A stretch of 64,000 nt of DNA, from positions 20,155 through 84,154 of the forward strand of contig PBSN01000004.1 in the NCBI GenBank assembly GCA_002726235.1, read 5' to 3'. The notes under the pieces are model-generated. The model saw nothing but the letters and a program-made list of their open reading frames with translations. It was not told the origin of the DNA and did not search any database. The stretch is from Nitrospiraceae bacterium (lineage in GTDB: Bacteria; Nitrospirota; Nitrospiria; Nitrospirales; UBA2166). Position 1 is the stretch's first letter. Every line of letters begins with the position of its first letter. Positions 26,038 through 49,848 of the stretch are shown piece by piece. The position numbers and the translations under genes were made by a program.

Positions 26038-26091
26038 GGGACACGCTTTTTGCTCCGAATGAATGAAGGATACGTATTATAAAGTTATAAA

Positions 26092-26248
26092 GGCAACTAC
26101 TCAGGCATTTAGGCTAAAGGTAAAAACAGGTAAAACCCTTTACAAGGACGAATGCGCTATTCGCGGCCTCTCCTCTCCTTGTCTGGTTATTACGTGATGG
26201 GTCTAGTTTGCTGTTTTCGTTTTCAGGCTCAGTACCTGAGTAGTTACC
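26092..26248 (+). repeat. MITE-like element with 16-bp terminal inverted repeats
   Basis: Between accB and accC, GGCAACTACTCAGGCA (26092-26107) is the near-perfect reverse complement of 26233-26248 (14 of 16 bases, 11 contiguous). The 157-base unit has no gene. The form suggests a miniature inverted-repeat element. No second copy was seen in the window, and no clear target duplication. Confidence 0.55.
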
Positions 26249-26271
26249 TAATCAGAGAAGGGTGGTCGAAG

Positions 26272-27346: not shown

Positions 27347-27792
27347 TCGGTTTCTTCTCCCTTCAACGTCTGTATTGCCGCACGTATTCCAAGGCAATAG
27401 CTGTATGGGCCAAATCCTGAGATCTGTCCGATTGTCACGGCTGCGGCATAGGAATGCCGTCGAAACTCTTCTCTTGCGTAAATGTTTGAGAGATGGACTT
27501 CGATTGTTGGAGTTGGAACGGAGGCAATTGCATCGCGAATAGCAATGCTGGTGTGGGTGAATGCTCCTGGGTTCAACACGATGGCATCATAACGTGAAGG
27601 AGCCTCTTGAATCCATTGGATCAGATCGGCCTCGGCATTTGATTGTCGCGCTGTGACCTCCGCGCCTGCGGATTTTCCCCACTCAACAAGTTTGCGGTCC
27701 AATTCCTCAAGGGATCCTGCTCCATAAATTGAAGTTTCTCTTGATCCGAGGAGATTAAGGTTAGGACCGTGTAAAACTAGGAGCTGGTGCAT
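27343..27792 (-). CDS. aroQ: 3-dehydroquinate dehydratase, type II
   Basis: This roughly 149-residue enzyme catalyses the third shikimate step. It is recognised by LLVLHGPNLNLLGSRE, a catalytic tyrosine in SIYG, LNPGAFTHTS, the catalytic histidine in TIEVHLSNIYAREEFRRHS, and a terminal GFGPYSYCLGI. The ATG at 27792 gives the standard N-terminus; two upstream starts (27804 and 27816) are possible. Its overlap with efp is a common bacterial arrangement. Confidence 0.94.
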   Translation of the reverse strand: MHQLLVLHGPNLNLLGSRETSIYGAGSLEELDRKLVEWGKSAGAEVTARQSNAEADLIQWIQEAPSRYDAIVLNPGAFTHTSIAIRDAIASVPTPTIEVHLSNIYAREEFRRHSYAAAVTIGQISGFGPYSYCLGIRAAIQTLKGEETE

Positions 27793-27954
27793 ATGAACTC
27801 GCATGAACCCACGCACAGCATCATAATGGATTCGTTGGTAAAAGAATAGCCTTGCGTGGCAATATGTTATGACACTTCACTCGTTGACCTGAGAGAAACT
27901 GCTTTGTTAAAATCGCGCGGATTTTGATCGTTTGAGGATGAGGATATCAATACG

Positions 27955-28839
27955 GTGGACGGTGCGGCATATCTCGCTGCTCAGCGAGAAAAAATTGACC
28001 GATTTCTCGACGAGACTCTCCCAGGCTCAGATAGTACCCTTCATGAAGCTATGCGGTATAGCCTGCTTGCAGGGGGGAAGCGTTTACGCCCTGGACTTGC
28101 CGTTGCCGCGTACGAAGCCGTTGAGGGGACATCTCAGGATATTATACGTATGGCTTCGACTCTCGAACTGATTCATACCTATTCGCTGATTCACGACGAT
28201 TTGCCGGCCATGGATGACGATAACTATCGTCGAGGAAAACCCGCAAGTCACAAAGCATTTACTGAAGCAATCGCGATCTTGGCGGGTGATGCTTTGCTGA
28301 CATTGGCTTTTGAAGTTGCAAGTCAACCAGGAGTATTAGCAAACGATATTAGTGAGGGGACTCGTCTTCAAGTAATCCGTGAACTGGCCGAAGGATCTGG
28401 AAGCTTCGGAATGGTTGGTGGCCAGGCGATCGATATTGAATCAGAAGGTATGGCAATTGATGCTAAACGCCTTGAGCATATCCACAAACATAAAACTGGG
28501 AAACTCTTTCGTGCGGCGGTGCGTATTGGGGCCCTCATGGGTGAGGCATCGGCGGAGCAGTTGGATTTGCTCACAAGATACAGTGAGGACATTGGCCTTG
28601 CATTTCAAATCAATGACGATATTCTGAATGTCGTCGGAGCCCGGACGAAACTTGGCAAATCAACTAATAGCGATGCGGCGAGAGGAAAACCCACCTATCC
28701 TGCTTTTTTCGGTATTGACGCATCGCGACAGAAGGTTAAGGCGCTCACCGAGCGAGCGATCCACTGGCTTGAGTCATTTGGCCTCCCTGCCGAGCCGTTA
28801 AGGGCCATCGCCATCTTCCAACTCAGTCGCACTTCGTAA
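27955..28839 (+). CDS. ispA: Polyprenyl (farnesyl/geranylgeranyl) diphosphate synthase
   Basis: This 294-residue trans-prenyltransferase has the first aspartate-rich motif LIHDDLPAMDDDNYRRGKP near residue 82. The second motif is FQINDDILNVVG near residue 220, and GGKRLRPGLAVAAYEAV binds the pyrophosphate. It makes the C15 or C20 diphosphate for quinones and carotenoids. The short residue spacing ahead of the first motif is that of the IspA group. The start is GTG 27955. The dxs gene often found next is absent. Confidence 0.9.
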   Translation: MDGAAYLAAQREKIDRFLDETLPGSDSTLHEAMRYSLLAGGKRLRPGLAVAAYEAVEGTSQDIIRMASTLELIHTYSLIHDDLPAMDDDNYRRGKPASHKAFTEAIAILAGDALLTLAFEVASQPGVLANDISEGTRLQVIRELAEGSGSFGMVGGQAIDIESEGMAIDAKRLEHIHKHKTGKLFRAAVRIGALMGEASAEQLDLLTRYSEDIGLAFQINDDILNVVGARTKLGKSTNSDAARGKPTYPAFFGIDASRQKVKALTERAIHWLESFGLPAEPLRAIAIFQLSRTS

Positions 28840-29520
28840 TTTCCTAAGGAACAGTCATTTGATTGTTGTGCCTCAAGGAAACCTCATCCATCCCGTTTGC
28901 CCTGAGCTAGTCGGAGATAGCCCTTTCCAACGATTTGTATTTTCGGTTTTCGGCGCTTCCCGCTAAGCAACTTTGCCGGCTGGGCCTTTGTGGGAATGAG
29001 TTCTCTTCTTGTGTTTACGATGTGGAAATCGCGTTTCTCGCGTCACAGGGAAGATTTGTCGTCGGATCGGGCGCCTTGGTCTTTATTAGGCCATTTACCT
29101 CAAGCACAACTTAGGCACAAATAATAGTAGACAAAAATTTCATCTTTGAGGTATTGTGCGTTTTATCGGAGACCGAGGAATAGGGCTTTACTGTCTCGTC
29201 TTGATATTCAATTCGGCGGCAACTTTTTGGATTGGGGAGTTTTGGCTTGGAGTGCCAGGAACTACGATTTATCTTTTGCTCAGCCTCTGGCTTCTGATGA
29301 AAAATTGCGCTTTATCAATTAAACTACCTACTACATGATGTATCCTTCTAGATAATAGGCACAGCATACATGATTTATCTGGGATGGTTTGCGCGTTTCA
29401 GTGTGTGGCAGGTGCTTCTTGGGCCAAATGCTTAATCCTTCTAGGTCTTGAGGTCATAGAGCAATTTGGGTATCGTATGTCGCTTGTGTGTTTACTAGCA
29501 AAGAGGGAAAGGACACTGGA
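28840..29520 (+). other. Long intergenic leader upstream of the reductive TCA cluster
   Basis: About 680 bases separate ispA from aclB. The only small frame (29156-29338, 60 codons, hydrophobic) lacks a convincing ribosome binding site and is not called. The region becomes AT-rich toward aclB and contains the palindrome TACATGATGTA near 29331, with a related TACATGATTTA near 29368. These may be regulator sites for the cluster; no consensus is known to me. Confidence 0.4.
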
Positions 29521-30765
29521 ATGGCAAAGGTTTTAGAAGGATATGGAATGGGGATTCTCCAGAAATGGAATATTGCCGTGCCACGAAATGTTGTGGTGAC
29601 TTCGGTTCAGGATCTTGACCGGCGTGTTTCTGACAATCCGTGGCTGAAAAACACGCAGCTTGTTGCGAAGGCTCATGAAGCTCTTGGATCACGTTTCAAA
29701 CTCGGATTAGTCAGGGTCAAGCTCAACTTCACGCAAGCACGAAGTGCCGTGAAGGGCATGATTGGACGCCAAGTCGGTGGATTGACCGTTAGTGAGGTCA
29801 TTGTCTCGGAGATGGTGCCACATTCTCATGAGTACTATGCAGCAGTCCAAGCGACGCGCAACGGTGCGGATATTTTGCTTGCAACCTGTGGGGGAATCGA
29901 CGTTGAGGAAAATTGGGATCGCGTGAAATCCCTCGCCGTGGAAGTTGGGAACACTCCTTCCAAGAACGCTCTGGAGACGTTGGCGCGCAAGGCTGGGTTT
30001 TCTGGTGATCTGGTTGGTAAGGCTGCAGATTTCGCCGGAAAGCTGTTTGCCGCGTACGATAATGAAGATGGACAGTACTTAGAAGTCAATCCGCTGGTCC
30101 ATCGGAGTTTGGACAGAACATTGGTTGCGCTTGATGTGGTGACATTGCTTGATGGTGATGCAAAATTCCGTCATCCGGATTGGACCTTCCCCTTTGCGGC
30201 TGAATTTGGCCGGGCCTATACCGAAAACGAAAAAGAAGTCATGGCGGTTGATGCGAAAATCAAAGGCTCCGTCAAGTTCATCGAAATTCCGGGTGGAGAT
30301 ACCGCTTTGCTTCCTGCCGGCGGTGGCGCCAGCGTGTATTACTCCGACGCGGTCGTTGCGCGAGGAGGCACTCTCGCAAATTACTCTGAATATTCCGGCG
30401 ATCCTCCCGATTGGGCGGTGGAAACATTGACTGACAAGGTGTGCTCGTTGCCGGGAATAAAACGCCTTATTGTCGGCGGCGCGATTGCTAATTTTACCGA
30501 CGTCAAAAAAACATTTGGGGGCATTATTGCCGGCTTTCGAAAGGCGAAAGCAAAAGGCAAGATGGATAAAACTCATATTTGGGTTCGTCGTGGCGGGCCA
30601 CGTGAGAAAGAGGGGCTTGCAGCGATGCGTGAGTTGGCTAAGGAAGGATTTAAAATTCACGTGTTTGATCGCAACACCCCCTTGACCGATATTGTCGACA
30701 TGTCGCTTGGGAAAAAGTCTCGATCAGGAGCGAAAGGCTCAAAGAAGAAAGCGGTGTCCACATGA
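29521..30765 (+). CDS. aclB: ATP-citrate lyase, small (ATP-grasp) subunit
   Basis: This 414-residue protein is the SucC-like subunit of the two-subunit ATP-citrate lyase, which cleaves citrate to acetyl-CoA and oxaloacetate in the reductive TCA cycle. It starts MAKVLEGYGMGILQKWNIAVPR. The ATP-grasp segment includes GQYLEVNPLVHR, and the C-terminal half has a citrate-binding GGGASVYYSDAV loop. ATG 29521 follows GAGGGAAAGGAC. Its stop overlaps aclA (ATGA), so equal subunit production is likely. The lysine-rich tail is unusual. Confidence 0.93.
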   Translation: MAKVLEGYGMGILQKWNIAVPRNVVVTSVQDLDRRVSDNPWLKNTQLVAKAHEALGSRFKLGLVRVKLNFTQARSAVKGMIGRQVGGLTVSEVIVSEMVPHSHEYYAAVQATRNGADILLATCGGIDVEENWDRVKSLAVEVGNTPSKNALETLARKAGFSGDLVGKAADFAGKLFAAYDNEDGQYLEVNPLVHRSLDRTLVALDVVTLLDGDAKFRHPDWTFPFAAEFGRAYTENEKEVMAVDAKIKGSVKFIEIPGGDTALLPAGGGASVYYSDAVVARGGTLANYSEYSGDPPDWAVETLTDKVCSLPGIKRLIVGGAIANFTDVKKTFGGIIAGFRKAKAKGKMDKTHIWVRRGGPREKEGLAAMRELAKEGFKIHVFDRNTPLTDIVDMSLGKKSRSGAKGSKKKAVST

Positions 30766-32579
30766 GTATTATGGCGACCACAAAAACGAAAGTTGTGATT
30801 CAAGGTGGTGTGGCCGGACTCAATGCAGCGCGCCGGATGGGAGAGTTTTGCTACCTGATTCATAAACCGCTGAATGTTGAAGCGTTTGTTTATCCACCAG
30901 ACGCAGGAAAAAGTTATGACGTGCCGTTTGGGAGTCAGATCATTCCCGTTCCCGTGTATCGAACGATAAAAGAAGCGACATCAAAGCATCTTGTGAACAC
31001 CAGCTTGATCTATATGGGCGCAAATCGCGCTTACTCCGGAGCCATGGAAGCACTCGAATCTCCGGATATCAAATCCATCTCGATGATTACCGAGGGTGTG
31101 CCTGAACGTGATGCCAAATTGCTGGCAAGGGAAGCTAAGAAACGTGGAAAGCTCTTTAATGGTCCCTCTTCGATAGGCGTTATATCTGCTGGCGAGTGCC
31201 GGCTTGGGGTCATTGGAGGATCGTACGATAATTTGGTTGCTTGCAACCTGCATCGTCCTGGATCATTCGGGGTCATTACGAAATCAGGAGGTCTCTCCAA
31301 TGAAATTATGTGGATCACAAGTCAGTTTGCCGATGGAATTACGACGGCCATTGGAATTGGTGGAGACGCATATCCCGGAACGGATTATGTGACCTACCTC
31401 GAAAAATTTGAAAAAGATCCCAAAACGAAGGCCGTGATCATTGTCGGAGAGATGGGTGGAACTCTCGAAGAAGAAGCTGCGGCATGGTATGGCGCAAAGA
31501 AGCGGCGGGTTCAACTCCTTGCCGTCGTGTCCGGTTTCTGTCAGGAATCGCTGCCCAAGGGTATGAAGTTTGGGCATGCGGGGGCAAAGGAAGGCATGCA
31601 TGGTGAGGGCTCCGCGCGTTCCAAGGCACAGTTGCTCAAAAAATCGGGTGCGATTGTCCCTGATACATTTGGTGCTCTAGGTCCGGCCATCAAGAAAGTC
31701 TATGCGAACCTGATCAAGTCTGGGCAGGCGAAGGAAATTCCAGCTATCCCAGCTCCTCAGCTCCCCAAAACCGTAGATGCTGCGGTAAAAGCTGGCGATG
31801 TCGCCGTGACTCCGCTCATTCGAACAACCATTGCTGATGATCGAGGCGAGGAACCATGTTATGACGGGTATCCTGCGTCAGAACTGATCAACAAAGGCTA
31901 CGATATCCCACACGTCATGGGATTGTTATGGGACAAGCGACTAATCTCAAAGCAAGAGGCGGAAATCATTCGTCGGATCATCATTCTCTCTGCCGATCAT
32001 GGACCTTGTGTCAGTGGTGCCCTCGGAACAATTATCGCAGCCTGTGCGGGCATTGGAATGTCGCAGGCTGTTGCAGCCGGTCTGATCATGATTGGGCCAC
32101 GCTTCGGCGGAGCCGTGACAGATGCCGGTCGCTGGTTTCAATATGGCGTCAAGAACCACAAAGGCGATATTCCCGGCTTCCTCGCGTACATGAAGGATAA
32201 CGTTGGGCCAGTTCCGGGAATTGGACATCGAGTCAAAAGTGTGAAAAACCCAGACAAACGGGTAAAGGAATTGGTGAAGTACGTAAAGTCCACTAGAATC
32301 AAGACTCCACATCTTGACTTTGCGTTGGCACTCGAACAGGTAACTGCTGGAAAAAAAGATAATTTGATTCTTAATGTCGACGGCACCATGGCTGCCATTC
32401 TCGTGGATATTGGATTCCCGGTCGACAGCCTAAACGGATTTTTTGTTCTCTCCCGAACCATTGGTTTGATCGGCCATTGGACAGACCAGAAAAGACAGGG
32501 GGGGCGTCTCATTCGCCTGTTTGATTATCTTGTAAACTATGCGACATCCAAACGACGCGAAGTGCCAAAACTCAAATAG
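30762..32579 (+). CDS. aclA: ATP-citrate lyase, large subunit
   Basis: This 605-residue protein joins a SucD-like half to a citrate-synthase-like half. The phosphohistidine is in FGHAGAKEGMHGEG near residue 272, and the citryl-CoA lyase half has the LSADHGPCVSGAL and GPVPGIGHRVKS motifs. With AclB it forms the ATP-driven key step of carbon fixation by the reductive TCA cycle. The adjacent genes acn, icd and sucCD complete the succinyl-CoA and citrate ends of the path. Presence of both subunits points to genuine autotrophy. Confidence 0.95.
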   Translation: MSIMATTKTKVVIQGGVAGLNAARRMGEFCYLIHKPLNVEAFVYPPDAGKSYDVPFGSQIIPVPVYRTIKEATSKHLVNTSLIYMGANRAYSGAMEALESPDIKSISMITEGVPERDAKLLAREAKKRGKLFNGPSSIGVISAGECRLGVIGGSYDNLVACNLHRPGSFGVITKSGGLSNEIMWITSQFADGITTAIGIGGDAYPGTDYVTYLEKFEKDPKTKAVIIVGEMGGTLEEEAAAWYGAKKRRVQLLAVVSGFCQESLPKGMKFGHAGAKEGMHGEGSARSKAQLLKKSGAIVPDTFGALGPAIKKVYANLIKSGQAKEIPAIPAPQLPKTVDAAVKAGDVAVTPLIRTTIADDRGEEPCYDGYPASELINKGYDIPHVMGLLWDKRLISKQEAEIIRRIIILSADHGPCVSGALGTIIAACAGIGMSQAVAAGLIMIGPRFGGAVTDAGRWFQYGVKNHKGDIPGFLAYMKDNVGPVPGIGHRVKSVKNPDKRVKELVKYVKSTRIKTPHLDFALALEQVTAGKKDNLILNVDGTMAAILVDIGFPVDSLNGFFVLSRTIGLIGHWTDQKRQGGRLIRLFDYLVNYATSKRREVPKLK

Positions 32580-32602
32580 ACCTGAGTACAGGAGAAACTA
32601 GA

Positions 32603-34924
32603 ATGTTGGCTGAACACGTTAAAGCACTGTATGCATCAATGTCAGAAAGGGTGGACGCAGCACGGAAGAAGTTTGCTCGGCCGTTGACACTTGCGGAAAA
32701 GATCCTAGTTTCGCATGCCGACAACTTTGATACCCAAGTGTGGGATCGAGGCAGGGCGCAATTGCTCCTCCGTCCGGATCGTGTCGCCATGCAAGATGCC
32801 ACCGCGCAGATGGCGATGTTGCAATTCATTCAGGCCAAGAAGTCCCGCGTTGCGGTATCCAGCACGATTCATTGCGACCATCTGATTCGAGCTCAGGTTG
32901 GTGCAGACGCCGACCTGCTTCTGGCAAACAATGAAAATCGTGAGGTTTACAATTTTCTTTCGTCGTCGGCCAAAAAGTATGGAATTGGATTCTGGAAGCC
33001 AGGGTCAGGAATTATTCATCAGGTTGTGTTGGAAAATTACGCGTTTCCCGGTGGACTGATTATCGGAACCGATTCACACACCCCCAACGGTGGCGGCCTC
33101 GGCATGTTGGCAATTGGTGTTGGTGGTGCAGATGCTGGAGAAGTTATGGCAGGGTTGCCGTGGGAAGTGCTCCACCCTCAGTTGATTGGCGTCAAATTAA
33201 CCGGAAAGTTGAATGGGTGGACATCGGCAAAGGATGTCATCCTTTACCTTTGCGGGCTTCTCACAACCAAGGGCGGGACCAACAGAATTATTGAATACTT
33301 TGGCCCTGGAGCCTCGACAATTAGCGCGACGGGTAAAGGGACCATCACTAACATGGGTGCTGAGTTGGGTGCGACAACATCAATTTTCCCATTCGATGAC
33401 AAGATGGCTGCATACTTGCGTCTCACCGATCGTGCGGATGTGGCTGAGTTGGCAGAAGCGAACCACAAGCTACTGGTTGCTGATCCTGAAGTAACACAGG
33501 ATGCTGAGAAATTCTATGACAAGATCGTTGATGTTGATCTCTCCACTCTTGAGCCATACGTGGTTGGCCCACATACCCCTGATCTTGCAAGGCCGATTTC
33601 GAAGTTGTCCTCCGAGGTCAAAACAAAGAGCTATCCAGCCAAACTAGGCGCGGCATTGATTGGAAGTTGCACAAACTCCTCTTATGAAGATATCAGCCGG
33701 GCGGCCCACGTGGCCAAGCAAGGGTTAGCTGCTGGCTTGAAAGCGAAGGCTTCGTTCTTTGTGACCCCAGGGTCCGAACGGATTTATCACACTATGAAAC
33801 GCGATGGATTTATGGAGATCTTTGAATCCATGGGGGGGACTGTTCTTGCCAATGCCTGTGGCCCCTGCATTGGGCAGTGGGAACGCGGTGGTAGCAAAAA
33901 AGGAGAGGCCAATTCAATCGTGAGTTCCTATAACCGAAACTTTCCAGGACGAAACGATGGAAATGCCGAGACGCTCTCATTTCTTTCGAGCCCTGAGATC
34001 GTAACGGCTCTGGCATTCTCTGGCGATCTGCATTTTGATCCCGTAAATGGGTCTATCGATACGAACGATGGAAAGACGTTTAAGTTTGAAATGCCTCAAG
34101 GCGAGGAACTTCCGAAGCAAGGTTTCGCCAAGGCAGAAGAAGGCTTTGTCCCACCAGCAGACAATGGTACCGACCTTGAGGTTGACCTTCCGCCAACCAG
34201 TGAACGATTGCAGTTGTTAGAGCCGTTTCCCGCGTGGGATGGACGAGATTTTCGAATGCTTCCAATTCTGATCAAGACCAAAGGCAAGACGACGACCGAC
34301 CACATTTCTCCAGCTGGGCCGTGGTTGAAATTCCGTGGTCATTTGGACAAGATCAGCGATAACATGTTTCTTGGAGCCACAAACGCATTTTCAGATACTG
34401 TCGGAGAAGGCACAGACGCACTTGAAGAAGACGACGGCTTAGAGGGGAAAAGCAGCTTAAAGATTGCCGAGATTGCACGGCGGTATAAGGCTAAGGGTAT
34501 TGGCTCCGTTGTGATCGGAGACGAGAATTATGGTGAGGGAAGTAGTCGTGAACATGCTGCCATGTCGCCGCGCTTCCTCGGCGTCCAAGTGGTTATTGTG
34601 CGGAGCTTCGCTCGTATTCACGAGACAAATCTTAAAAAACAAGGCATTCTTCCGCTGACATTTGCCAATCCTGCCGACTATGACTTGTTTGAACAGGATG
34701 ATCGTGTATCGGTCATGGGGCTGAGTCACCTGGCCCCAGGCCAACCGGTAAGAGTTGCCGTGTCGAAATCAGCTACCGAAGTGGTGATTGATACGAATCA
34801 TAGCTTCACAGAACAGCAGATTGGGTGGTTCAAGGCGGGTTCTGCACTGAACGCGCTGGGCACCACGGAATCAGACGGGAGCGCCGTGCTCGGATTGGGT
34901 AATGGGGCCAGCTGTCAATCATAG
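32603..34924 (+). CDS. acn: Aconitate hydratase (mitochondrial-type)
   Basis: This 773-residue [4Fe-4S] enzyme interconverts citrate and isocitrate. The three cluster cysteines are in GSCTNSSYEDI (near residue 355) and ANACGPCIGQW (near residue 418). The swivel domain has YGEGSSREHAAMSPRFLG. The length and DSHTPNGGGLGMLAIGVGG block fit the mitochondrial-type family rather than AcnA or AcnB of E. coli. CAGGAG lies upstream of the ATG. Confidence 0.94.
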   Translation: MLAEHVKALYASMSERVDAARKKFARPLTLAEKILVSHADNFDTQVWDRGRAQLLLRPDRVAMQDATAQMAMLQFIQAKKSRVAVSSTIHCDHLIRAQVGADADLLLANNENREVYNFLSSSAKKYGIGFWKPGSGIIHQVVLENYAFPGGLIIGTDSHTPNGGGLGMLAIGVGGADAGEVMAGLPWEVLHPQLIGVKLTGKLNGWTSAKDVILYLCGLLTTKGGTNRIIEYFGPGASTISATGKGTITNMGAELGATTSIFPFDDKMAAYLRLTDRADVAELAEANHKLLVADPEVTQDAEKFYDKIVDVDLSTLEPYVVGPHTPDLARPISKLSSEVKTKSYPAKLGAALIGSCTNSSYEDISRAAHVAKQGLAAGLKAKASFFVTPGSERIYHTMKRDGFMEIFESMGGTVLANACGPCIGQWERGGSKKGEANSIVSSYNRNFPGRNDGNAETLSFLSSPEIVTALAFSGDLHFDPVNGSIDTNDGKTFKFEMPQGEELPKQGFAKAEEGFVPPADNGTDLEVDLPPTSERLQLLEPFPAWDGRDFRMLPILIKTKGKTTTDHISPAGPWLKFRGHLDKISDNMFLGATNAFSDTVGEGTDALEEDDGLEGKSSLKIAEIARRYKAKGIGSVVIGDENYGEGSSREHAAMSPRFLGVQVVIVRSFARIHETNLKKQGILPLTFANPADYDLFEQDDRVSVMGLSHLAPGQPVRVAVSKSATEVVIDTNHSFTEQQIGWFKAGSALNALGTTESDGSAVLGLGNGASCQS

Positions 34925-39485: not shown

Positions 39486-40265
39486 TCAACTCTTCTCCTC
39501 AGCGGTCGTCTGAGGCGTTTGTTTCTCCCTATACGCCCAATAGACCAAAACCCCGATGGTTAATACAAGCAATACAAAGGTCGGACGGCCGTATTCGGCA
39601 CCTGAGAATATAATCAGGTCATCAAATCGCCCGATGAGCAATGACATGCGCGACATAACGGTATAACCAAATGCCGCTCCAAACGCGATCATTAAGAACA
39701 CAATTCCAGTTCGTGCGACTGCCTGTCCTGCCCCGCGATGTTCAACCGAAAAGAAAAAGTAGAACAACACCGAGAGCACCCCAATAAGGGTGATCAAGTT
39801 GTTGATATCGCTTTTTGGATCGAGGAAGTTTATTGTATAGGTCAGTCCCGATGCTGTCATCGTCGCCAACGGCCTGATGGTGTCTTCTAATTGGCTAAGC
39901 ACGTTAGAGGAGATAAGCCGCGGGATAATGGTTCCGGATCCAAAGCCGACGACGAATGCGAAACTAATTCTGGACAGCCAGGCAATCCTTGGGAAAAACC
40001 GAGCAGAGATCATCAGGCCGAGCAGAGACGGAATGAGAAGCTGCCACTGGCCTTCTTCTGTCATGGGCACCCACAACAGTTTCACTCCAACAGCATAAAT
40101 CGTAATCACGATACTATACCCGACAGAAATCCCGACATACAGATGCTCTCCGAGTTTGAACAATGGGTTATCCCTATACAGAAAGGTATAGATAAAGAGA
40201 GTCAAGCCCGTCGCCACCCAGGCTCCAATTAGCACGTCTATCGGTATTCCGTCAGTCGGCATCAA
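39486..40265 (-). CDS. Conserved multi-pass membrane protein of the DUF6754/MutL-like locus
   Basis: This 259-residue protein has about seven predicted membrane segments, starting with GAWVATGLTLFIYTFLY. It is the last gene on the minus strand, directly abutting the gene before it (stop and start adjacent at 40265/40266). I do not recognise a transporter or enzyme motif. A small soluble segment with DPKSDINN lies near the middle. The polar C-terminus ends TAEEKS. Its tight placement suggests it works with the three genes upstream. Confidence 0.8.
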   Translation of the reverse strand: MMPTDGIPIDVLIGAWVATGLTLFIYTFLYRDNPLFKLGEHLYVGISVGYSIVITIYAVGVKLLWVPMTEEGQWQLLIPSLLGLMISARFFPRIAWLSRISFAFVVGFGSGTIIPRLISSNVLSQLEDTIRPLATMTASGLTYTINFLDPKSDINNLITLIGVLSVLFYFFFSVEHRGAGQAVARTGIVFLMIAFGAAFGYTVMSRMSLLIGRFDDLIIFSGAEYGRPTFVLLVLTIGVLVYWAYREKQTPQTTAEEKS

Positions 40266-41108
40266 TCACGTCCTCTTCTGTCGTCGTGAGATCACGTAAA
40301 ACACATTGCAGATAATTACAAGCACAATAATCACAAAATGTGTGGCGGATTGCGAATCCATTCCCGCCGTAGCTTTTCCAGACTGATCAAGCAACTTTTC
40401 ATATTCTGCAGCACCACGGAGACCGCCAATGAGTCCGTTAATTTGACCCGCGCGAAGGCGAGGATACAGCCCGGGCGCCATGACCGCAGTGCTTCCTCCT
40501 CCTAATTCAAACCGATACTTATCCTTTCCATATATGTACCACTCATCGACCCCGGGAAAGCCTGCGGCGAGACTCACCGCATAGTCTACATCCCGGAGCG
40601 TTTTCACATTGTGCATCACGGAAAGCTCATCAATAGGTATCCCATAATGATCCTGAGGGAACGTCCCCACAAGATCCTGCCCCATGCTCAAAATGACCGC
40701 TGATGCTCCCGGGCGCCATCCGAGAAACGCATAGTCTGTTCCATTAATCTTCTCCAGCTCCTCTGCCACCGTCGCCATGGCTTCTTCTGCCATGCCTGTT
40801 CCTGTTACGAGGAGTGTCAGTCCAATCACCTTCAGGTTCTTTTTGAATGCATGGCGGAGAAGAGCGATGGCTTGAGGATAGACCTCAGGCTTAGATGCAG
40901 GATCAAAATCCATAGAGAGTAAGAACACTGACCCTTCAGGGAGCGATTCCATATGGTCATAAACGGCTCGTACTTCTGGCGAAATCATGATTGGGAGGTT
41001 GATGGGGTTGAGCAGCGGAATCAAGGTCGCAAGCGCGATAAGCATGAAAATAAAGCGGCGATCAATCGCAAGCATCCTGGTCACAATGGAATGATTGGAC
41101 AGGTTCAT
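40266..41108 (-). CDS. Membrane-anchored protein with a large soluble domain, DUF6754/MutL-like locus
   Basis: This 280-residue protein has one membrane segment near residue 18-38 and one at the very C-terminus (about 250-272), with about 200 soluble residues between. The soluble part alternates strands and helices (VFLLSMDFDPASKPEVYP, KVIGLTLLVTGTGMAEEA, AFLGWRPGASAVILSMGQD), which suggests a Rossmann-like alpha/beta fold. It ends with GGSTAVMAPGLYPRLRAGQ and GGLRGAAEYEKLL. No known catalytic motif is visible. It overlaps the previous gene by four bases. Confidence 0.8.
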   Translation of the reverse strand: MNLSNHSIVTRMLAIDRRFIFMLIALATLIPLLNPINLPIMISPEVRAVYDHMESLPEGSVFLLSMDFDPASKPEVYPQAIALLRHAFKKNLKVIGLTLLVTGTGMAEEAMATVAEELEKINGTDYAFLGWRPGASAVILSMGQDLVGTFPQDHYGIPIDELSVMHNVKTLRDVDYAVSLAAGFPGVDEWYIYGKDKYRFELGGGSTAVMAPGLYPRLRAGQINGLIGGLRGAAEYEKLLDQSGKATAGMDSQSATHFVIIVLVIICNVFYVISRRQKRT

Positions 41109-41758
41109 TCCTTCTTCCCACCGAGATACATACGCTCAATCCCAAAAATTATTTTGATCGAAAGTGCAATCACGCCCAAACTGACCCCAATGAGTATCGC
41201 TCGTCGAACCGACGAATTTATGACATTGAGTATCCATTGTGCGATGTCCCCCGAAAACGCCCAGAGATATTCCCCAAGCGGGACCCTGCCCCACATCACG
41301 AGAAGCGCGGCGATGAGCAACAGTGCTGCTTCCTTTGTCCTCGCCCGAAAGGCACGATAGGCAGCCGATGCAACGAAAAACGCCAGGAGCGAAAACATGG
41401 TCCCCTGCAACGGAACCATTGCGTATGAGTATGCCCATCCGTAACCGGTTAACGCTCGCTCCGAATCAAGGTTTTTTCCACCTGCCAAAATCCCTGCGAT
41501 GACCATTGCAAACATTGCAGCAAAGAGCACAGCGCTGTATCCCCAGCCTCCCACGTTCCGTTGAATACGATGCATGTGCAGTTGGATCAGGCTGACTAAT
41601 CCCAAAATCAACGCGAACCCACCGATGATGATGATCCAGTTGGACGCATTCTTGAGCAGTGCCTCAGAGGTCGGATGGGGAACGTAGTATTGCATGGCAA
41701 ACACTACCCCCATGCAAAAGGTCACTACGAGTGGAAGTTGTCGCTTTAGAAAAATCAT
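41105..41758 (-). CDS. Conserved membrane protein of the DUF6754/MutL-like locus
   Basis: This 217-residue protein has about six membrane segments, with a short loop around HMHRIQRNVGGWGYSA and a charged stretch RAFRARTKE. The first segment is at residues 6-25. I do not recognise a family. It overlaps the downstream gene by four bases (41105-41108), so coupling is likely. An inverted-repeat element separates it from the DUF6754-type gene upstream. Confidence 0.8.
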   Translation of the reverse strand: MIFLKRQLPLVVTFCMGVVFAMQYYVPHPTSEALLKNASNWIIIIGGFALILGLVSLIQLHMHRIQRNVGGWGYSAVLFAAMFAMVIAGILAGGKNLDSERALTGYGWAYSYAMVPLQGTMFSLLAFFVASAAYRAFRARTKEAALLLIAALLVMWGRVPLGEYLWAFSGDIAQWILNVINSSVRRAILIGVSLGVIALSIKIIFGIERMYLGGKKE

Positions 41759-41823
41759 TGGTTAGGAGTCAGCAAACGACACGATATAAGCCGGAAGCAC
41801 TTGATGGATTGCTGAAACATAAT

Positions 41824-41944
41824 GGACTGTTCAAAAAATCAAATCTAGCAGACCATAGCTATTTTGATGCGCGGAATGTACCGGTAAGTACGGCGAACAT
41901 GACAAAAAAGCGAGAATGCCACTGGATGACTTTTTCAACATTCC
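41824..41944 (-). repeat. Intergenic inverted-repeat element, copy 2
   Basis: The left end holds GTTCAAAAAATC; the right end read on the minus strand is GGAATGTTGAAAAAGTC. Positions 41909-41939 match copy 1 (6011-6041) at 27 of 31 bases. It interrupts the membrane-gene cluster between the DUF6754-type gene and its next member. Confidence 0.7.
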
Positions 41945-41946
41945 TA

Positions 41947-43188
41947 TCATTTAAAATCATAGAACACCTGAACGGCATACATAAACGTCTCAGTCTGAAA
42001 GATTTCCCCTGCCGTGCTGAGAGCCACACCCAAGATTAACGCCCCAAGTAGCACGGCCTTTCCCAGATCCTGTGCTCGCAATGTTCCCACCATTACCGGC
42101 TCACGGGATAGATATGCGCTCGCAGCATACAATTCCTCACCCATAAGCGTGTAATCGCAGGCAATGACGAAAAAAGGAAGCTGATGGTCCGCATCGGTCC
42201 CAGCAATCTGAATGGCTCCCGCTTCGTGCCCGGTCTCTGCCAACAGCAAAGACTCCGCAAAGTAATAGCCTAACAGAAAGATAGCTGCTGGCCGTTCTCT
42301 AAGCATGATGCCTTGAACTGCTGCGGTGTAGCTGAATTGATCATCTGTAATATAGAAGTTCATTTCCGATGTGTACGCATCCGGATGTCCCGTCTGTGTG
42401 TACGCTTCTTTGGTGATTTCTTGGCAAATCGCCAACACAATGGGATCTCGATGCGGCACAATCAGGCCGGTCTCATACGTCGACACCTTTTTGGCGACCT
42501 CGCTCAGCACGACGGTTGCTGCTATGGTCGATGGATTATCCATAGACGCGGAACCTGTCAGATACAAAATTGGCTTCCCCATTTCCGTGGCTCGCCCGAT
42601 CGCCTCCTCAACGGCATCCAATCCCCCGATGCGGCGGAGAAACCTGTGAGGGGCTTTTCGTGCCCTGCGAATGGAAAACAACACAGCCACTGTAAAGAGG
42701 ATCAGAAGTAGCAGGTTATTAGATTGTGCCCGATTGAACAGATTTGGGCGTGGAGTCGCGCTTAATGGCTTGGTTTCAGCGGAGTGCATTCCGTTATCGA
42801 TAGCAAGCTTGACCCAATAGGGTGTTCCGTCCTCAAACGTTACCTGTTTACCGGACTGAAGATCGAATCGATGATTGTTCGGTGTGGCCAGACGTATCCA
42901 CCATGGGTGTTTCGGGCCTTTTCGAAAGTGCTTGTCGTGCGGAAATGCAGCAACTTCCTGATACGGACCATCTACAGAGCCCGCAATCAACACTTGATAC
43001 CGAAGAGATGATCCATCAACCGGCAAAATGCTCCATCCCAGAGTGAGGCTTCCACCCCCATCATTCGGAGTATCAATCACACGAAAGTCCTGAGGAGGCT
43101 GAAGATGTCGGGTGTCAGCGCTGGCTAAGGGTGCCAAAAGTGCTATTATCGCGATGGTAAGACCGAGATCAACTGCTCGCTTACACAT
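41947..43188 (-). CDS. FN3 and DUF6754-type membrane protein
   Basis: This roughly 413-residue protein has a signal peptide ending near PLASA. A fibronectin type III-like domain follows (about 25-130, from FRVIDTPNDGGGSLTLGWSI to HSAETKPL), then a membrane segment LLLLILFTVAVLFSI. A large domain of about 200 residues comes next with VEEAIGRATEMGKPILYLTG, LAICQEITKEAYTQTGHPDAYTSEM and FFVIACDYTLMGEELYAASAYLS. A C-terminal segment near 380-400 may be a second anchor. I associate this arrangement with DUF6754, a family of unknown function. ATG 43188 is chosen over an upstream TTG. Confidence 0.75.
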   Translation of the reverse strand: MCKRAVDLGLTIAIIALLAPLASADTRHLQPPQDFRVIDTPNDGGGSLTLGWSILPVDGSSLRYQVLIAGSVDGPYQEVAAFPHDKHFRKGPKHPWWIRLATPNNHRFDLQSGKQVTFEDGTPYWVKLAIDNGMHSAETKPLSATPRPNLFNRAQSNNLLLLILFTVAVLFSIRRARKAPHRFLRRIGGLDAVEEAIGRATEMGKPILYLTGSASMDNPSTIAATVVLSEVAKKVSTYETGLIVPHRDPIVLAICQEITKEAYTQTGHPDAYTSEMNFYITDDQFSYTAAVQGIMLRERPAAIFLLGYYFAESLLLAETGHEAGAIQIAGTDADHQLPFFVIACDYTLMGEELYAASAYLSREPVMVGTLRAQDLGKAVLLGALILGVALSTAGEIFQTETFMYAVQVFYDFK

Positions 43189-43439
43189 GCTAATCACTTC
43201 AAGCACCCCTGTCTCTATTGCCAAAAATACACACGCGCTATGGTAACGAAGAATGACTGTTGATTTCTACACCCAAGTGGCGATTGGTAATCCAAGCGTA
43301 TCAAATGATAAAATTGCTCAGTTTCGATGCAATGTTTTGCTTTTTGGCCCCGTGATTGATACCCTAAGGGTGCTTATTCATCCGACACAGCAGTATCAAC
43401 CCAAAGGAGGACCAGATAGCTAGACCATCACAGCTTGCC

Positions 43440-43634
43440 ATGGCCAAACGCAATCGCGAACGGGCCAAACAAGCCAAACGAAAAGCTAAAGAGGAGCGAA
43501 AAGCACAGCGAACAGCTGACAAGCTTCAGCGTCCACAGGCAGTCTTGGACGAATTTGGGAATCCCATCGAACTCAGTGATGATCTTGGTCAGCTCACTGA
43601 GTCAGAGGTAGCTGACGTCCCAGAAGACCAGTAA
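43440..43634 (+). CDS. Small highly basic protein
   Basis: This 64-residue protein has a Lys/Arg/Ala-rich N-terminal half (MAKRNRERAKQAKRKAKEE) likely to form one charged helix. An acidic tail ends EVADVPEDQ. It lies on the plus strand inside the minus-strand cluster. AAGGAGGA occurs about 36 bases upstream, too far for the ATG, so the start is uncertain. Similar short basic proteins occur in other Nitrospirota and deltaproteobacteria, from memory; the function is unknown, perhaps RNA-binding. Confidence 0.6.
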   Translation: MAKRNRERAKQAKRKAKEERKAQRTADKLQRPQAVLDEFGNPIELSDDLGQLTESEVADVPEDQ

Positions 43635-43659
43635 AGCACCTCATCGCCTCTTCCCAGTA

Positions 43660-44796
43660 TTACCCTTCAAGAATTTCTACATTCGTGCGAGGGACAATAA
43701 TCTGTGCAGCGTTTGGCAGTTCTACCTCAATCACCCGAACATGGCTTTCGGTTGGAATAGTTTGAAGGTCTGCGGGGAGAGCGGTTACTTTTCCAATCTG
43801 GCCAAAATGAGGTTCGCGGATAATGCGAATCTGATCCCCTATTGCAATCCCCTCTCGTGATTTTGTGTTTTTCCAATTACTCGGTGACGACTCATCGGCA
43901 TCCCGCCGCAAAGGAATAATGATTTCAGGGCGAATGACACCGGCGCGAATCTGGGTAGCACCAGAAATAGAGGTCTTGCGCCCAACATGGTGGGATAAGA
44001 GATGGAACGTCTTCTGTGCCATAGGGATTGCGCCAAATCCTTCTGTCACGATAAGAGTGAACCCAATTGTTTCCGTTCCTGTAATGGCAACACCAATATC
44101 GTATCCCAACAGTGTGTTGAGATCCTGCGCATCGACTCCTCCGACGATCAACCCTCGAAGGCCGCGGTCCTTGGCCTTTTGCAATACATCCCAACTCGCG
44201 TACGCACCGCCGAATACTACTGCTCCACACATGTCCGCAGTGATGTGAATTGGGTGCATAATTTCATCTGGTGTTTCGGTTGCCTTGACCAGCGGCCCCC
44301 AGACTTCACCGCCCACACCGAAAATGCCCTGAAGCAAGCTGCATGTGGTTTCAACTATCACGCCTTCTTCGGAAATAATCTCTTGAACAATCCCATCAAC
44401 ATATGCCATTACGTTCAGGGGGGCCGGGTTTTCACGAATGAGTACCTGCCCTGTCACGTCAGAAATGCTCTCTATTGACCCGGATATTGGCGATTCGACC
44501 TGAGTTTTAAGCCAAGCAATGAACGGCCTGTCCTCGGCGATGATATCACCACGCTCAATCTCGTCCCCTTTTTTCTTAAGCATGAAGTCCTGAATGTCGG
44601 TAGGGAGAATACCCAACTGATTGACCACATTCAGTACGTGAACTTTTCCTGGAAGCTCGGTTCGTGCAATGACGGTTGTCGGATCGACCGCCTGCCCTCT
44701 CTTAACCAACACGACGCCGGGAAGCGGGAGAACCCGTTTCTTTCGAAGAATAGTTCGATCGGTGATGGTGAGTCCAGGGGTGTATGCGTGAGCCAT
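43660..44796 (-). CDS. Conserved protein with barrel-like domains and a C-terminal KOW-like motif
   Basis: This 378-residue soluble protein starts with a barrel-like segment (LPLPGVVLVKRGQAVDPTTV) and a second one (VESPISGSIESISDVTGQVL) that recall lipoyl/RnfC-type sandwich domains. A middle alpha/beta part includes GLRGLIVGGVDAQDLNTLLG. A C-terminal KOW-like strand pair follows (GDQIRIIREPHFGQIGKVTAL). It sits four bases downstream of the MutL-like gene and is almost surely cotranscribed with it. No enzyme motif was recognised. A scaffold or assembly role is only a guess. Confidence 0.75.
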   Translation of the reverse strand: MAHAYTPGLTITDRTILRKKRVLPLPGVVLVKRGQAVDPTTVIARTELPGKVHVLNVVNQLGILPTDIQDFMLKKKGDEIERGDIIAEDRPFIAWLKTQVESPISGSIESISDVTGQVLIRENPAPLNVMAYVDGIVQEIISEEGVIVETTCSLLQGIFGVGGEVWGPLVKATETPDEIMHPIHITADMCGAVVFGGAYASWDVLQKAKDRGLRGLIVGGVDAQDLNTLLGYDIGVAITGTETIGFTLIVTEGFGAIPMAQKTFHLLSHHVGRKTSISGATQIRAGVIRPEIIIPLRRDADESSPSNWKNTKSREGIAIGDQIRIIREPHFGQIGKVTALPADLQTIPTESHVRVIEVELPNAAQIIVPRTNVEILEG

Positions 44797-44800
44797 GGGA

Positions 44801-46603
44801 TTAGGGAGTAGTGCTCGGATAGAGATTCAATAAATCATTCCACCTCATGAGGGTGGCGATACGATGATTGTGATTGTCAGGAAGTTGTAGTGGTCGCCCG
44901 CGGCAATCAATGATCAGACCAACTATTCCTCCGCTCAATTCGCGCCTAATGCGCTCGCCTTTTCCGATCCCCAGGTCAACACCTCTGGATGGGATGAGTG
45001 TGAGAGACGCCCCGTTCCAATTGGCAGAAGGACGTAACAGAATTTCTCCCCACTTCACAGATCCCGCATCAAGCCGGCGCTGCGCGACACCACGAACTTC
45101 ATATTCGAGACAGGGATCATTCAATTTTCCTTGTCCTAAGGGTGCAACGCAAGTTCCCAACGGAATCAAGCAATCATGGAAAAATACGTCAGTCGCAGCG
45201 CGTTCGTCCACCGTCGATAGTACCCCTAAATGAGGCATCATGAAAATACTGTCTACTGCAAGTTCTGTAATTCCGACCGGCTCATAGGCATCGATCATCA
45301 TGACCATCGAATGGACACGACGCGGAGCATGAGAAATAATCCCACCACTTCCAACGATTAAATCGAGGCATTGCATCTCAATTAACGAGTCTCCTGCAGT
45401 CTGTTGCTGAAACACATCTGAAATCGATCGTTCCTGCTGTAGACCCTTAAGCCCGGTGGCTAGAGTTTTGTGATGGTTCATTGCCAAGCGAAGCGCTTCA
45501 CGTGCAATGGCCTGTTCAATTTGCAATTCTTCCAGTGTCTGTGGAATGGTGGTCGGGCGGATCATCTTGTTCTTGATCCGATTTCGAAGGTCAGCTTCAG
45601 GAATTCCAAATGGAAGCCAACGCAGGACATTTTCGATGCCCGTTTCAGCTAAGACATTGGAAATGCTGTAGCTCATGCCGAGGTTGGCACTGACCGTCCG
45701 ATTGAACACCTGATCGAAGACAGAAAAAACATCAGTTGTTGCTCCGCCGATATCCACCCCGACAATGTTGATGTTGTGCCGTTTTGCGAGACTCTGCATC
45801 ATTACGCCAACCGCTGCGGGAGTGGGCATGATCGGCGCACCGGTCCATAACATGAGAGTTTTGTACCCTGGGGCTTGGGCCATCACGTGTTCGAGGAATA
45901 GGTCGTGAATCTTCGCACGTGCAGGGCCAAGGTTTTCGCGTTCAAGCGAGGGTCTGAGGTTTTCCGAGATCGAGAGCGCCATCTTCTCTCCTAAAGTGTG
46001 TTCGATTTGTTTGCGTGCCTTCATATTCCCAGCGTAGATTAGTGGAAGGCGATATCCAAGTCCCAATCGTGGTTTTGGATCAGCAGCCGCAATGTATTCT
46101 GCAAGTTCAACTACGTGGGTAATGGTGCCGCCATCTGTCCCTCCGGACAGCAAGATCATGTCGGGACGCAAGGCGCGAATACGCTCGATTTTTTCATGAG
46201 CCGGCCTTCCATCATTTGAGGCTAGGGTATCCATCACAATGGCACCAGCGCCTAATGCGCATCGTTGTGCACTTTCCCCGGTCATATTTTTGACCGCTCC
46301 AGCCACCATCATTTGAAGACCGCCACCGGCGCTACTAGTTGATAAGTACAGGTCGATGCCGTCGTTGCCATGGCTCGGTGTTCGAAAACGTTCACCATTG
46401 AGAATAGTACGTTCAGATAGTTCTTCAATTTCAGCGATGGCGTTCAAGACGCCACGTGTCACATCTTCGAATGGAGCTTCAACTGTCGTTGGAGCCTCTC
46501 CTCGAAACGTCTGGCGATATTTGCCGTCTTTTTTCTCAATCAAAATGGCTTTCGTCGTTGTACTGCCACAGTCTGTGATGAGGATCGTCTGGAGGTTATT
46601 CAT
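44801..46603 (-). CDS. MutL-like (glutamate mutase L family) ASKHA ATPase
   Basis: This 600-residue protein has the ASKHA nucleotide-binding pattern: phosphate-1 ITDCGSTTTKAI (residues 9-20), phosphate-2 VGVDIGGATTDV (281-292) and an adenosine motif VGSGGIISH (417-425). It belongs to the family annotated as glutamate mutase L, thought to help reactivate a B12-dependent mutase in clostridia. No mutase subunits are present here, so this label is by similarity only. Its neighbours are a small soluble gene (8-base overlap) and the KOW-like gene. It may power assembly of the membrane proteins of the locus. Confidence 0.85.
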   Translation of the reverse strand: MNNLQTILITDCGSTTTKAILIEKKDGKYRQTFRGEAPTTVEAPFEDVTRGVLNAIAEIEELSERTILNGERFRTPSHGNDGIDLYLSTSSAGGGLQMMVAGAVKNMTGESAQRCALGAGAIVMDTLASNDGRPAHEKIERIRALRPDMILLSGGTDGGTITHVVELAEYIAAADPKPRLGLGYRLPLIYAGNMKARKQIEHTLGEKMALSISENLRPSLERENLGPARAKIHDLFLEHVMAQAPGYKTLMLWTGAPIMPTPAAVGVMMQSLAKRHNINIVGVDIGGATTDVFSVFDQVFNRTVSANLGMSYSISNVLAETGIENVLRWLPFGIPEADLRNRIKNKMIRPTTIPQTLEELQIEQAIAREALRLAMNHHKTLATGLKGLQQERSISDVFQQQTAGDSLIEMQCLDLIVGSGGIISHAPRRVHSMVMMIDAYEPVGITELAVDSIFMMPHLGVLSTVDERAATDVFFHDCLIPLGTCVAPLGQGKLNDPCLEYEVRGVAQRRLDAGSVKWGEILLRPSANWNGASLTLIPSRGVDLGIGKGERIRRELSGGIVGLIIDCRGRPLQLPDNHNHRIATLMRWNDLLNLYPSTTP

Positions 46604-46952
46604 CGCGGCGAGGAGAAGTGGAGAGTGTCTTGCCTGCTTTGAATTCGATAAGAGTAATCAGTTTCTGGATGCTGTCGCGGCGTTCAAGAAGATGTGCAAT
46701 GCGATCGGTTTCTTCGGCGTGGCCAACAAGATTGATCAATGGCGATAGGGCGTGTAAAGCTTGGCTCCCCAGGAAATTCATGGGTCCAACTGATTCAAGC
46801 AGCAAGACCATAGGGGTTTCCATACGTCGCGAAACCACTTTCGTCGCAATATGGTCGAGTAGAGCGAGATCTTTGGCGGTGAGAGGCGTTGCGTTCGACT
46901 TCACAGCAAATGCATATTTGAATGCTTGAGTTAACCTCACCTTCAAACTCAT
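46596..46952 (-). CDS. Small conserved soluble protein, first gene of the MutL-like unit
   Basis: This 118-residue, mostly helical protein contains KDLALLDHIATKVVSRRM, then METPMVLLLESVGPMNFLGSQ-like and HALSPLINLV segments, and a charged end. I do not recognise a family. It overlaps the MutL-like gene by eight bases, so it is the lead cistron of that unit. The promoter must lie in 46953-47186, where I see no clear motif. Confidence 0.75.
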   Translation of the reverse strand: MSLKVRLTQAFKYAFAVKSNATPLTAKDLALLDHIATKVVSRRMETPMVLLLESVGPMNFLGSQALHALSPLINLVGHAEETDRIAHLLERRDSIQKLITLIEFKAGKTLSTSPRRDE

Positions 46953-47186: not shown

Positions 47187-48320
47187 TCATCCTCCAAAGA
47201 TAAATCTTGACCCCGTGTATGAAAGAACGAGTTTTTCCGGAAGTTTGTTCTGCATCTCGCTAATGAAGCCTGGGCCGCTGCAATGCATGGGCATGATGTG
47301 GTCAGGGTTGATTTTTTTCAGCTCCTGAACGGTTTTTGCGATATACGCCTTCGATGCTGGAGCCAAGTGGAATCCGCCCATGACGGCGTGCACCTTCTGC
47401 ACTCCTGACGCGGCTTGTGCTTGCCGCACTGAATTGACAATGCCTTTATGTCCACAGGAAGAAATCACAACGAGCCCACGATCTTTGACGTGGTAGCAGG
47501 TGGCATGTTCTCCAGGAAAATCGTCGATAATTGTTTTTCCTGCTTCACTATCGTGCGAAAAGAGGGTACTGTGACATCCCAATCCGTTTCGCATGCCCAC
47601 TTCAACGTGTGGGGTCGGCAGGATTTTCTCAAAACTGACGTTTGGAATCTCCCCGGTGGTAAAAGCATGGCCGGCAACCACGGTCGGTTGCTTCGCGAGG
47701 ACAAGTTTCACGTTGGTAGCTTCAATTTCTTTCCGATCAAGCACGTAGCTGATGCTAGTCTCTTGGCCTGGTCGAATCCAGCGGTAACAGAACGTATCCT
47801 CTCCTCCGACATAGACCTGAAGGGTTTTCCTCATTATTGAGCGATACTGTCTGAGCATTGGAATTAGCCCATCGAAATGATCATCGTGCCCATGACTTAC
47901 AATAAGGGCGTCGATCTGAGCCGGATCAATCTTCAGGAGGTCATAGTTATGGAACAACACGTCGGCTGTGCTACCAAAGTCGAGTAAGATCTGCCTGGTT
48001 TCACCGTTTCGCTGCGATTCCAAGTGGGTGGCAAAGCCCCACTGACTCTGAAGCATGCTATTGCCTCGAGGATCCCGTATGGTTCCCGTCCGTTCTACCT
48101 TAACATTGCCGACGTGTTTGTTTCGTGTAAGGATGTCGTGAAACGAGTCGATGACGATGCGAACTGCAAGGCGATCGACAACAGGGGGTGCGCTGGATTT
48201 TGCCAACGCCATGGACGGTCTGCTTTCCAACATCGGGATACCGACCAACACCGCGCCTGCGAAGCGAACTCCGGTCTGTAACACATCGCGTCGGGTGATG
48301 TAGATTTCGTCTTTCTCCAT
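47187..48320 (-). CDS. Tat-exported metallo-beta-lactamase-fold hydrolase
   Basis: This 377-residue protein has a twin-arginine signal (ITRRDVLQTG then a hydrophobic stretch, residues 8-32). The MBL-fold metal site VSHGHDDHFDGL is near residue 140, with later histidines in SSCGHKGIVN, GGFHLAP and MPMHCSG. The overall pattern is like MBL proteins related to dihydropterin aminobenzene phosphate synthase. A Tat signal on this group suggests a periplasmic, cofactor-loaded enzyme. Substrate is unknown. Confidence 0.85.
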   Translation of the reverse strand: MEKDEIYITRRDVLQTGVRFAGAVLVGIPMLESRPSMALAKSSAPPVVDRLAVRIVIDSFHDILTRNKHVGNVKVERTGTIRDPRGNSMLQSQWGFATHLESQRNGETRQILLDFGSTADVLFHNYDLLKIDPAQIDALIVSHGHDDHFDGLIPMLRQYRSIMRKTLQVYVGGEDTFCYRWIRPGQETSISYVLDRKEIEATNVKLVLAKQPTVVAGHAFTTGEIPNVSFEKILPTPHVEVGMRNGLGCHSTLFSHDSEAGKTIIDDFPGEHATCYHVKDRGLVVISSCGHKGIVNSVRQAQAASGVQKVHAVMGGFHLAPASKAYIAKTVQELKKINPDHIMPMHCSGPGFISEMQNKLPEKLVLSYTGSRFIFGG

Positions 48321-49197: not shown

Positions 49198-49848
49198 ATG
49201 ATTAGAACTGTTCTTCGCTACACCCTTCTCAGCATCTTGCTGATCACAATGGCCATGGCTTCTGTCGGACACGCCCACCCTGCAATGATCAAGAAGATGT
49301 TGGCGGCACATGCGCTATGGTTGAATACGTATGGCCTGGAAGGGAAACGCGCAAATTTCATGGAAATGGACCTGAGCGGTCACAACATGATCCACGTCGA
49401 GTTGGCATTTGCAGAATTGCGAATTTCTAATCTCAGCGCCATCGACCTTCGGTGGGCAAACTTGTGCAATGCCATTCTTAGCGGATCCAATTTCTCCGGA
49501 GCCGATTTGGGTGAAGCAAATCTTATTGAGGCAACATTGACCGCCGCCTACTTAAATGGTAGCGACCTGACAGGGGCAAATCTTAAAGGCGCCTCTCTTG
49601 CTATGGCCGACCTTAGTGGAGCATCGCTTCGCTTCGCCAATCTAACCAATGCCGACCTCAGTGGGGCCGATCTTCGAGACGTGGACCTGACGGGCGCAAT
49701 CTTAGATGGCACCAATCTTCAGAGCGCCAGACGCTTGACTATCCCCATGCTATCGAAAGTTGAAACATTATACGGTAGCAACCTCAATCCCCACCTCATG
49801 CAAACCCTTCAGGACTTCGCACCCCACCTTTTTCAACCACCTGAATAG
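49198..49848 (+). CDS. Exported pentapeptide-repeat protein
   Basis: This 216-residue protein begins with a signal peptide ending near VGHAHP. From about residue 60 to 180 it is a run of A(D/N)LxX pentapeptide repeats, for example GADLGEANLIEATLTAAYLN and SGADLRDVDLTGAILDGTNL. Such repeats form a right-handed square beta helix. Exported members have no single known function. It is monocistronic and converges on the NADHX epimerase gene. Confidence 0.9.
   Translation: MIRTVLRYTLLSILLITMAMASVGHAHPAMIKKMLAAHALWLNTYGLEGKRANFMEMDLSGHNMIHVELAFAELRISNLSAIDLRWANLCNAILSGSNFSGADLGEANLIEATLTAAYLNGSDLTGANLKGASLAMADLSGASLRFANLTNADLSGADLRDVDLTGAILDGTNLQSARRLTIPMLSKVETLYGSNLNPHLMQTLQDFAPHLFQPPE

Follow-up and report, generated by a model that had tools for sequence, protein, structure and literature searches.

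A candidate undescribed membrane system: seven conserved genes with a MutL-like ATPase and no mutase

What does a MutL-like ATPase, a protein usually read as a helper of B12-dependent mutases, do among membrane-protein genes in a cluster that holds no mutase? The question is raised by a 64,000-nucleotide stretch (the window) of contig PBSN01000004.1 from a Nitrospiraceae bacterium (assembly GCA_002726235.1), in which seven genes, here called A to G, lie on the minus strand at 39486-46952 in the order G-F-E-D-C-B-A from upstream to downstream (Table 1). All seven open reading frames (ORFs) that a first-pass annotation had assigned to the cluster were present. The same annotation had most neighbours overlapping or abutting by 0 to 8 bases, and this was true of four of the six junctions: A and B are 0 bases apart, B and C overlap by 4, E and F are separated by 4, and F and G overlap by 8. 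Only two junctions are wider, with gaps of 188 bases between C and D and 435 bases between D and E. We favour, tentatively and at just short of an even chance, the explanation that the products of the set form a single dedicated membrane complex together with a soluble module that controls it, in which the MutL-like protein F would be a platform or switch and one F-E-G module would serve several D-C-B-A units.

The cluster was found to hold together within its phylum. In 20 of 20 relatives, at 39-70% identity, all seven genes were adjacent with order and strand kept, a G homolog lying directly before F each time. This conservation of order is far beyond chance, and the other flanking genes of the window that were tested did not recur with the set in the 20 relatives. 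A survey of 148 genomes from the phylum found D, E and F in an identical 31 and none of the three in the other 117, one of which has a weak, below-cut-off MutL match; the 31 carriers are related, so they do not represent 31 independent events. The genes thus stay together, as expected if they form one system. The first-pass annotation had further held that a repeat element and a plus-strand gene split the set into two transcripts. Both interruptions exist: the C/D element has three partial copies elsewhere in this genome (73-89% identical), and the 64-residue plus-strand ORF between D and E had no tblastn match in any of the 20 relatives. The split itself did not carry over, since the relatives have tight junctions at both places (median spacing of 6 bases for C-D and 4 bases for E-D), and it is therefore a peculiarity of this genome and not conserved.

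Outside the phylum, we scanned 84,980 species genomes with a DNA pattern that represents the best-conserved part of DUF6754, the family of D, and avoids the serine codons of the window's relatives. At least 114 stretches matched. The matches listed, to which the counts across phyla given here refer, came from Zixiibacteriota, Chloroflexota, Cloacimonadota, Elusimicrobiota, Latescibacterota, WOR-3/Stahlbacteria, Eisenbacteria, Planctomycetota, Armatimonadota, Neomarinimicrobiota, Bacillota (Fermentithermobacillaceae) and Kofleriaceae. The D-C-B-A unit occurred in records of about twelve phyla (names taken from record titles), and its four genes were consecutive in 48 of the 60 loci with room to tell, by crude ORF calling. 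Genomes with DUF6754 from about twelve phyla carried MutL in 38 of 39 cases and E in 39 of 39, with E directly following F in most genomes and a G homolog directly before F in many other phyla. The whole set was contiguous in several phyla, the order in Chloroflexota being G-D-C-B-A-F-E, with G before D, and F-E and D-C-B-A sometimes stood at separate sites of one genome. A fresh sample of 246 genomes from a second phylum gave 56 with both D and E, 6 with D only and 3 with E only; in 40 of the 56, E was no more than 8 kb from D. No relatives were found on viral contigs in scans with the E and F profiles, and plasmids gave no D match. Together, these comparisons show that D-C-B-A is a conserved four-gene membrane unit and that F-E (with G) is a partner module found in nearly every genome having D. 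In some genomes, though not generally, the surroundings of F or E included accA, a GcvP-type gene or, as seen by eye, plsX/fabH. In Zixibacteria (L198, L199 and L203), a protein of 263-275 amino acids is encoded between F and E; it is weakly PsbP-like and has an N-terminal signal-like segment and one C-terminal transmembrane segment.

We then asked how F relates to the B12-mutase helpers. F matched the MutL family strongly (PF13941; E value 2.8e-124, 415.8 bits), and motif alignment showed its active-site motifs to be intact in the window, with DCGSTTTK as phosphate-1, DIGGATTD as phosphate-2 and GSGG as adenosine motif; the phosphate and adenosine motifs were also intact in F of most phyla. 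With MutL/GlmL, the accessory proteins of glutamate mutase and ornithine 4,5-aminomutase (PF13941, NF040745 and NF040744), F shares the ASKHA domain of its first ~477 residues, including the phosphate motifs. It differs from them in some 120 extra C-terminal residues, in its neighbours, which are E, G and DUF6754 genes and not mutase genes, in a low GlmL score and in its position on another branch. Its scores were below the cut-offs of the curated models (220 against 475 for NF040745 (GlmL), 198 against 600 for NF040744 and 147.9 against 204 for TIGR01319). No mutase subunits were found beside F in the window, and F stood with G and E in the 20 relatives and in the majority of loci from other phyla. 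A tree was built of 46 MutL proteins; its long branches (Chloroflexota, L239) make details unsure, but all five mutase-linked rows grouped together (100/100), opposite all 35 E-adjacent F proteins. The two kinds were also found side by side: Fermentithermobacillaceae with F-E carry short MutLs (~450 amino acids) directly next to ornithine 4,5-aminomutase or to a different mutase-like protein that binds B12, and one Latescibacterota genome has, in addition to F, a separate MutL (L235) beside methylaspartate mutase E and methylaspartate ammonia-lyase.

The statement of the first-pass annotation that no mutase is present was true of the cluster but not of the genome, which encodes methylmalonyl-CoA mutase on a different contig and, some 3 kb from it, a MeaB belonging to that mutase. 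At this mutase locus (L249, covering 22000-34000 of that contig), the large chain occupies positions 5423-7018 of the locus and the MeaB GTPase gene 9983-10747, and acyl-CoA genes were seen nearby by eye. Such a mutase, together with the PF13941 match, the naming as GlmL by NCBI and a cobalamin riboswitch in the window, would be in line with F being a GlmL-type helper of the usual kind, which would reactivate a B12 mutase whose gene lies at another place, its membrane-gene neighbourhood being incidental. However, the link of F with E and D extends over about twelve phyla among the matches listed, the genome's mutase has a MeaB of its own, the GlmL equivalog score misses its cut-off, and the 100/100 branch sets apart mutase-linked MutLs that co-exist with F in the same genomes. 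We regard this explanation as very improbable and close to refuted. Does the MutL-like gene, then, sit with mutase subunits? F does not, and the MutLs that do are a separate branch. Since those MutLs co-exist with F and the mutase has its own MeaB, 'glutamate mutase L' is a misleading name for F, which, as judged from alignments and tree, is not a mutase helper and belongs to a dedicated MutL subfamily apart from the B12-mutase helpers.

The membrane part was examined by hydropathy and flanking charge, which predicted 6-7 membrane segments in A, 2 in B, 6 in C and 2 in D, in agreement with the earlier description of three small membrane proteins plus D. On this prediction, FN3 in D and the domain of B lie outside and the DUF6754 domain inside. 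D is a full-length, high-scoring member of DUF6754 (PF20539; E value 1.5e-110, 368.8 bits against a cut-off of 27), to which Pfam assigns no function; its profile found FN3 domains strongly, and FN3 was also recovered by fold (Z 12.2). The AlphaFold2 model of D (predicted local distance difference test, pLDDT, 86.9) has an FN3 domain and a separate Rossmann-like domain, and that of B (pLDDT 95.4; predicted template modelling score, pTM, 0.90) has a Rossmann-like domain between two membrane helices. No close PDB relative of B was found. The fold matches obtained, 1kjn as the best for B (Z 10.6, 139 residues, root mean square deviation (rmsd) 3.1) and, for the cytosolic portion of D, Sir2 chains (Z 11.0 over 141-144 residues, rmsd 3.4-3.7), are generic Rossmann-like and were not taken as functional evidence. 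Duplication was rejected as the origin of the B and D domains and likewise of A and C, neither pair showing profile similarity in hhalign. Pfam and NCBIfam searches gave no family match for A, B, C or G.

For E, a weak match to RnfC_N (PF13375) or biotinyl-type domains was found at residues 75-115 (E value 1.8e-4, 21.9 bits against a cut-off of 25.6), and its profile gave weak C-terminal matches to NusG and Spt5 chains, consistent with a KOW part. The likeness to the RnfC/NqrA barrel-sandwich thus stays below cut-off, and E differs from those proteins in having a C-terminal KOW-like part instead of an SLBB, ferredoxin or flavin domain, none of which was found. Beyond this sub-threshold match, no other Rnf domain was present in the set. 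An anti-phage defence system was rejected, as none of the seven proteins matched a PADLOC model at an E value of <= 0.01.

Copy number varied between the two parts of the set. D-C-B-A copies were tandem or dispersed, with two to eleven per genome, whereas F-E was usually single. Several Zixibacteria, WOR-3 and Eisenbacteria genomes had 3-6 D genes but a single E gene. In two Fermentithermobacillaceae genomes, 1.4-2.1 Mb in size, 10-11 D genes were counted, along with several F-E pairs. The D-C-B-A units had unrelated surroundings at each genome site. D of Fermentithermobacillaceae was short (260-280 amino acids) and without the FN3 part, D frames of Cloacimonadota reached near 1000 amino acids, and B of Chloroflexota could exceed 1000 amino acids, some with N-terminal zinc ribbons. 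The outer and accessory parts vary, then, while the membrane core is constant. The DUF6754 genes of Fermentithermobacillaceae (L053, L219-L232) were mostly in complete D-C-B-A units, with some convergent pairs. As judged from gene counts, the pattern fits one control module serving several membrane units. The combination, within a genome, of one F-E module with several D-C-B-A units resembles ECF transporters and TonB-ExbB-ExbD in working only; by Pfam the set is without ABC ATPase, ExbB/D or TonB and has an ASKHA-type ATPase instead.

Amplification of whole units at unrelated genome sites would also be expected of an ATP-driven transporter, in which F hydrolyses ATP and, via E, drives substrate through the A-C membrane core, with one substrate for each D-C-B-A unit. 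About 16 transmembrane segments are predicted per unit, conserved polar residues lie close to the membrane in A (N33/E40/Q125), B (H257/N268) and C (R186), and the ATPase motifs are intact in most F proteins, all of which would suit such a role. The Chloroflexota F proteins (L215, L104, L117, L149 and L162) are hard to reconcile with an engine: they have lost the phosphate-2 GATTD motif and have a changed phosphate-1 motif, and they have kept their place in the operon, so that this F may be a pseudo-ATPase. Mainly for this reason we rank the transporter second and consider it doubtful; we also know of no transporter that uses an ASKHA ATPase as motor, which counts against it. Of the scaffolded, ATP-driven membrane complex that the first-pass annotation had thought plausible, the 'ATP-driven' part is weakened by the same loss, and the scaffolded complex is still an inference. 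A protein that loses its catalytic motif and keeps its operon fits a platform or switch better than an obligatory motor.

A dispensable catalytic motif would also suit a complex for envelope assembly or for a surface structure, with FN3 and the B domain at work on the outside, in a layout like that of the type IV pilus alignment complex, and without transport. In PilM and FtsA platforms, an actin-fold cytosolic protein lies beneath membrane proteins with outer domains, and an actin-fold cytosolic partner with bitopic proteins carrying outer domains is what would be expected here, as are the variable FN3 domains of many D proteins. The likeness to PilM-PilN-PilO-PilP and FtsA platforms is in working only, as there is no sequence match: none of the seven proteins matched PilM, PilN, PilO or PilP in Pfam at an E value of <= 1, nor did the set match any other pilus, secretion or polymer family. 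The neighbouring genes vary, and A and C are polytopic, unlike alignment subcomplexes, where they have no counterpart. We consider this explanation unlikely.

In the membrane complex with a soluble module that we favour, A, B, C and D would assemble in the cytoplasmic membrane, with FN3 of D and the Rossmann-like domain of B facing outside and the DUF6754 Rossmann-like domain of D inside. F, with its actin/Hsp70 fold, would bind nucleotide and dock with E and G on the inner face of D, where it may act as a nucleotide-dependent platform or switch, similar to PilM or FtsA, through which the membrane unit is assembled or gated. A single F-E-G module would serve several D-C-B-A units with differing outer parts, as in ECF or TonB systems, and the likely job would be the moving or handling of an envelope substrate. 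Several observations weigh against this explanation. Fermentithermobacillaceae with several F-E pairs show that the sharing ratio is not strict, and the Chloroflexota members, all in one operon, show no sharing. A minority of genomes, of which many are fragmented assemblies, yielded only D or only E. No substrate-linked gene recurred in the neighbour analysis, and none of the D units examined was found to have a riboswitch ahead of it; both of these results count against the transporter as well.

Table 1. Features of the seven-gene cluster, in window positions.
Feature	Position	Strand	Description
A	39486-40265	-	259 amino acids; membrane protein, 6-7 predicted transmembrane segments; last gene of the set; matches no family
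B	40266-41108	-	280 amino acids; two transmembrane segments around a predicted extracytoplasmic Rossmann-like domain; matches no family
C	41105-41758	-	217 amino acids; membrane protein, six predicted transmembrane segments; matches no family
C/D spacer	41759-41946		degenerate dispersed element, local to this genome
D	41947-43224	-	425 amino acids; signal/transmembrane segment, predicted extracytoplasmic FN3, transmembrane segment, predicted cytosolic Rossmann-like DUF6754 domain, C-terminal transmembrane segment
Small basic ORF between D and E	43440-43634	+	64 amino acids; matches no family; outside the conserved set
E	43660-44796	-	378 amino acids; soluble; N-terminal barrel-sandwich (RnfC_N/biotinyl-like) and C-terminal KOW-like part
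F	44801-46603	-	600 amino acids; MutL-like ASKHA ATPase; PF13941 at residues 7-477; C-terminal extension of ~120 amino acids
G	46596-46952	-	118 amino acids; soluble; first gene of the set; no Pfam/NCBIfam family

Around the cluster, a metallo-beta-lactamase fold protein is encoded just upstream of G (47187-48320, minus strand) and is not conserved beside the cluster. A pentapeptide-repeat-like protein was noted by eye at 49198-49848 (plus strand), and the cobalamin riboswitch of the window lies at 956-1153 (plus strand; 112.6 bits). In 20 of 20 same-family relatives, A is followed, at a median of 117 bases downstream, by an eighth same-strand gene for a protein of ~420 amino acids with a C-terminal Memo domain (PF01875). 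This gene, the only recurrent neighbour in the search for a substrate or pathway, was rejected as a core member, being missing from this genome and present in genomes without the system.

The first-pass annotation had called the system undescribed, and no description of the set was found in the 5.39 million open papers that we searched, where DUF6754 and PF20539 were named in no paper found and 'glutamate mutase L' was found only in a paper on another subject. Apart from MutL, FN3 and KOW, the parts have no relatives whose function is known, and the set does not show the defining features tested for Rnf, PilMNOP, ABC/ECF and listed defence systems; we therefore call it categorically new, with its function unproven. 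It is possible, at somewhat less than an even chance, that it represents a new class of membrane machine, in which a MutL-type ATPase and a barrel/KOW coupling protein serve several interchangeable four-protein units in about a dozen phyla, overlooked through the glutamate-mutase annotation. To our knowledge, no MutL-type ASKHA protein has been linked with a membrane complex before, and this would be the first. A misleading annotation is also corrected here: of the genes named 'glutamate mutase L' in public genomes, many are probably unrelated to glutamate mutase. A seven-gene set that is kept across about twelve phyla, and whose membrane part reaches up to eleven copies in a 1.4-Mb genome, must do something important.

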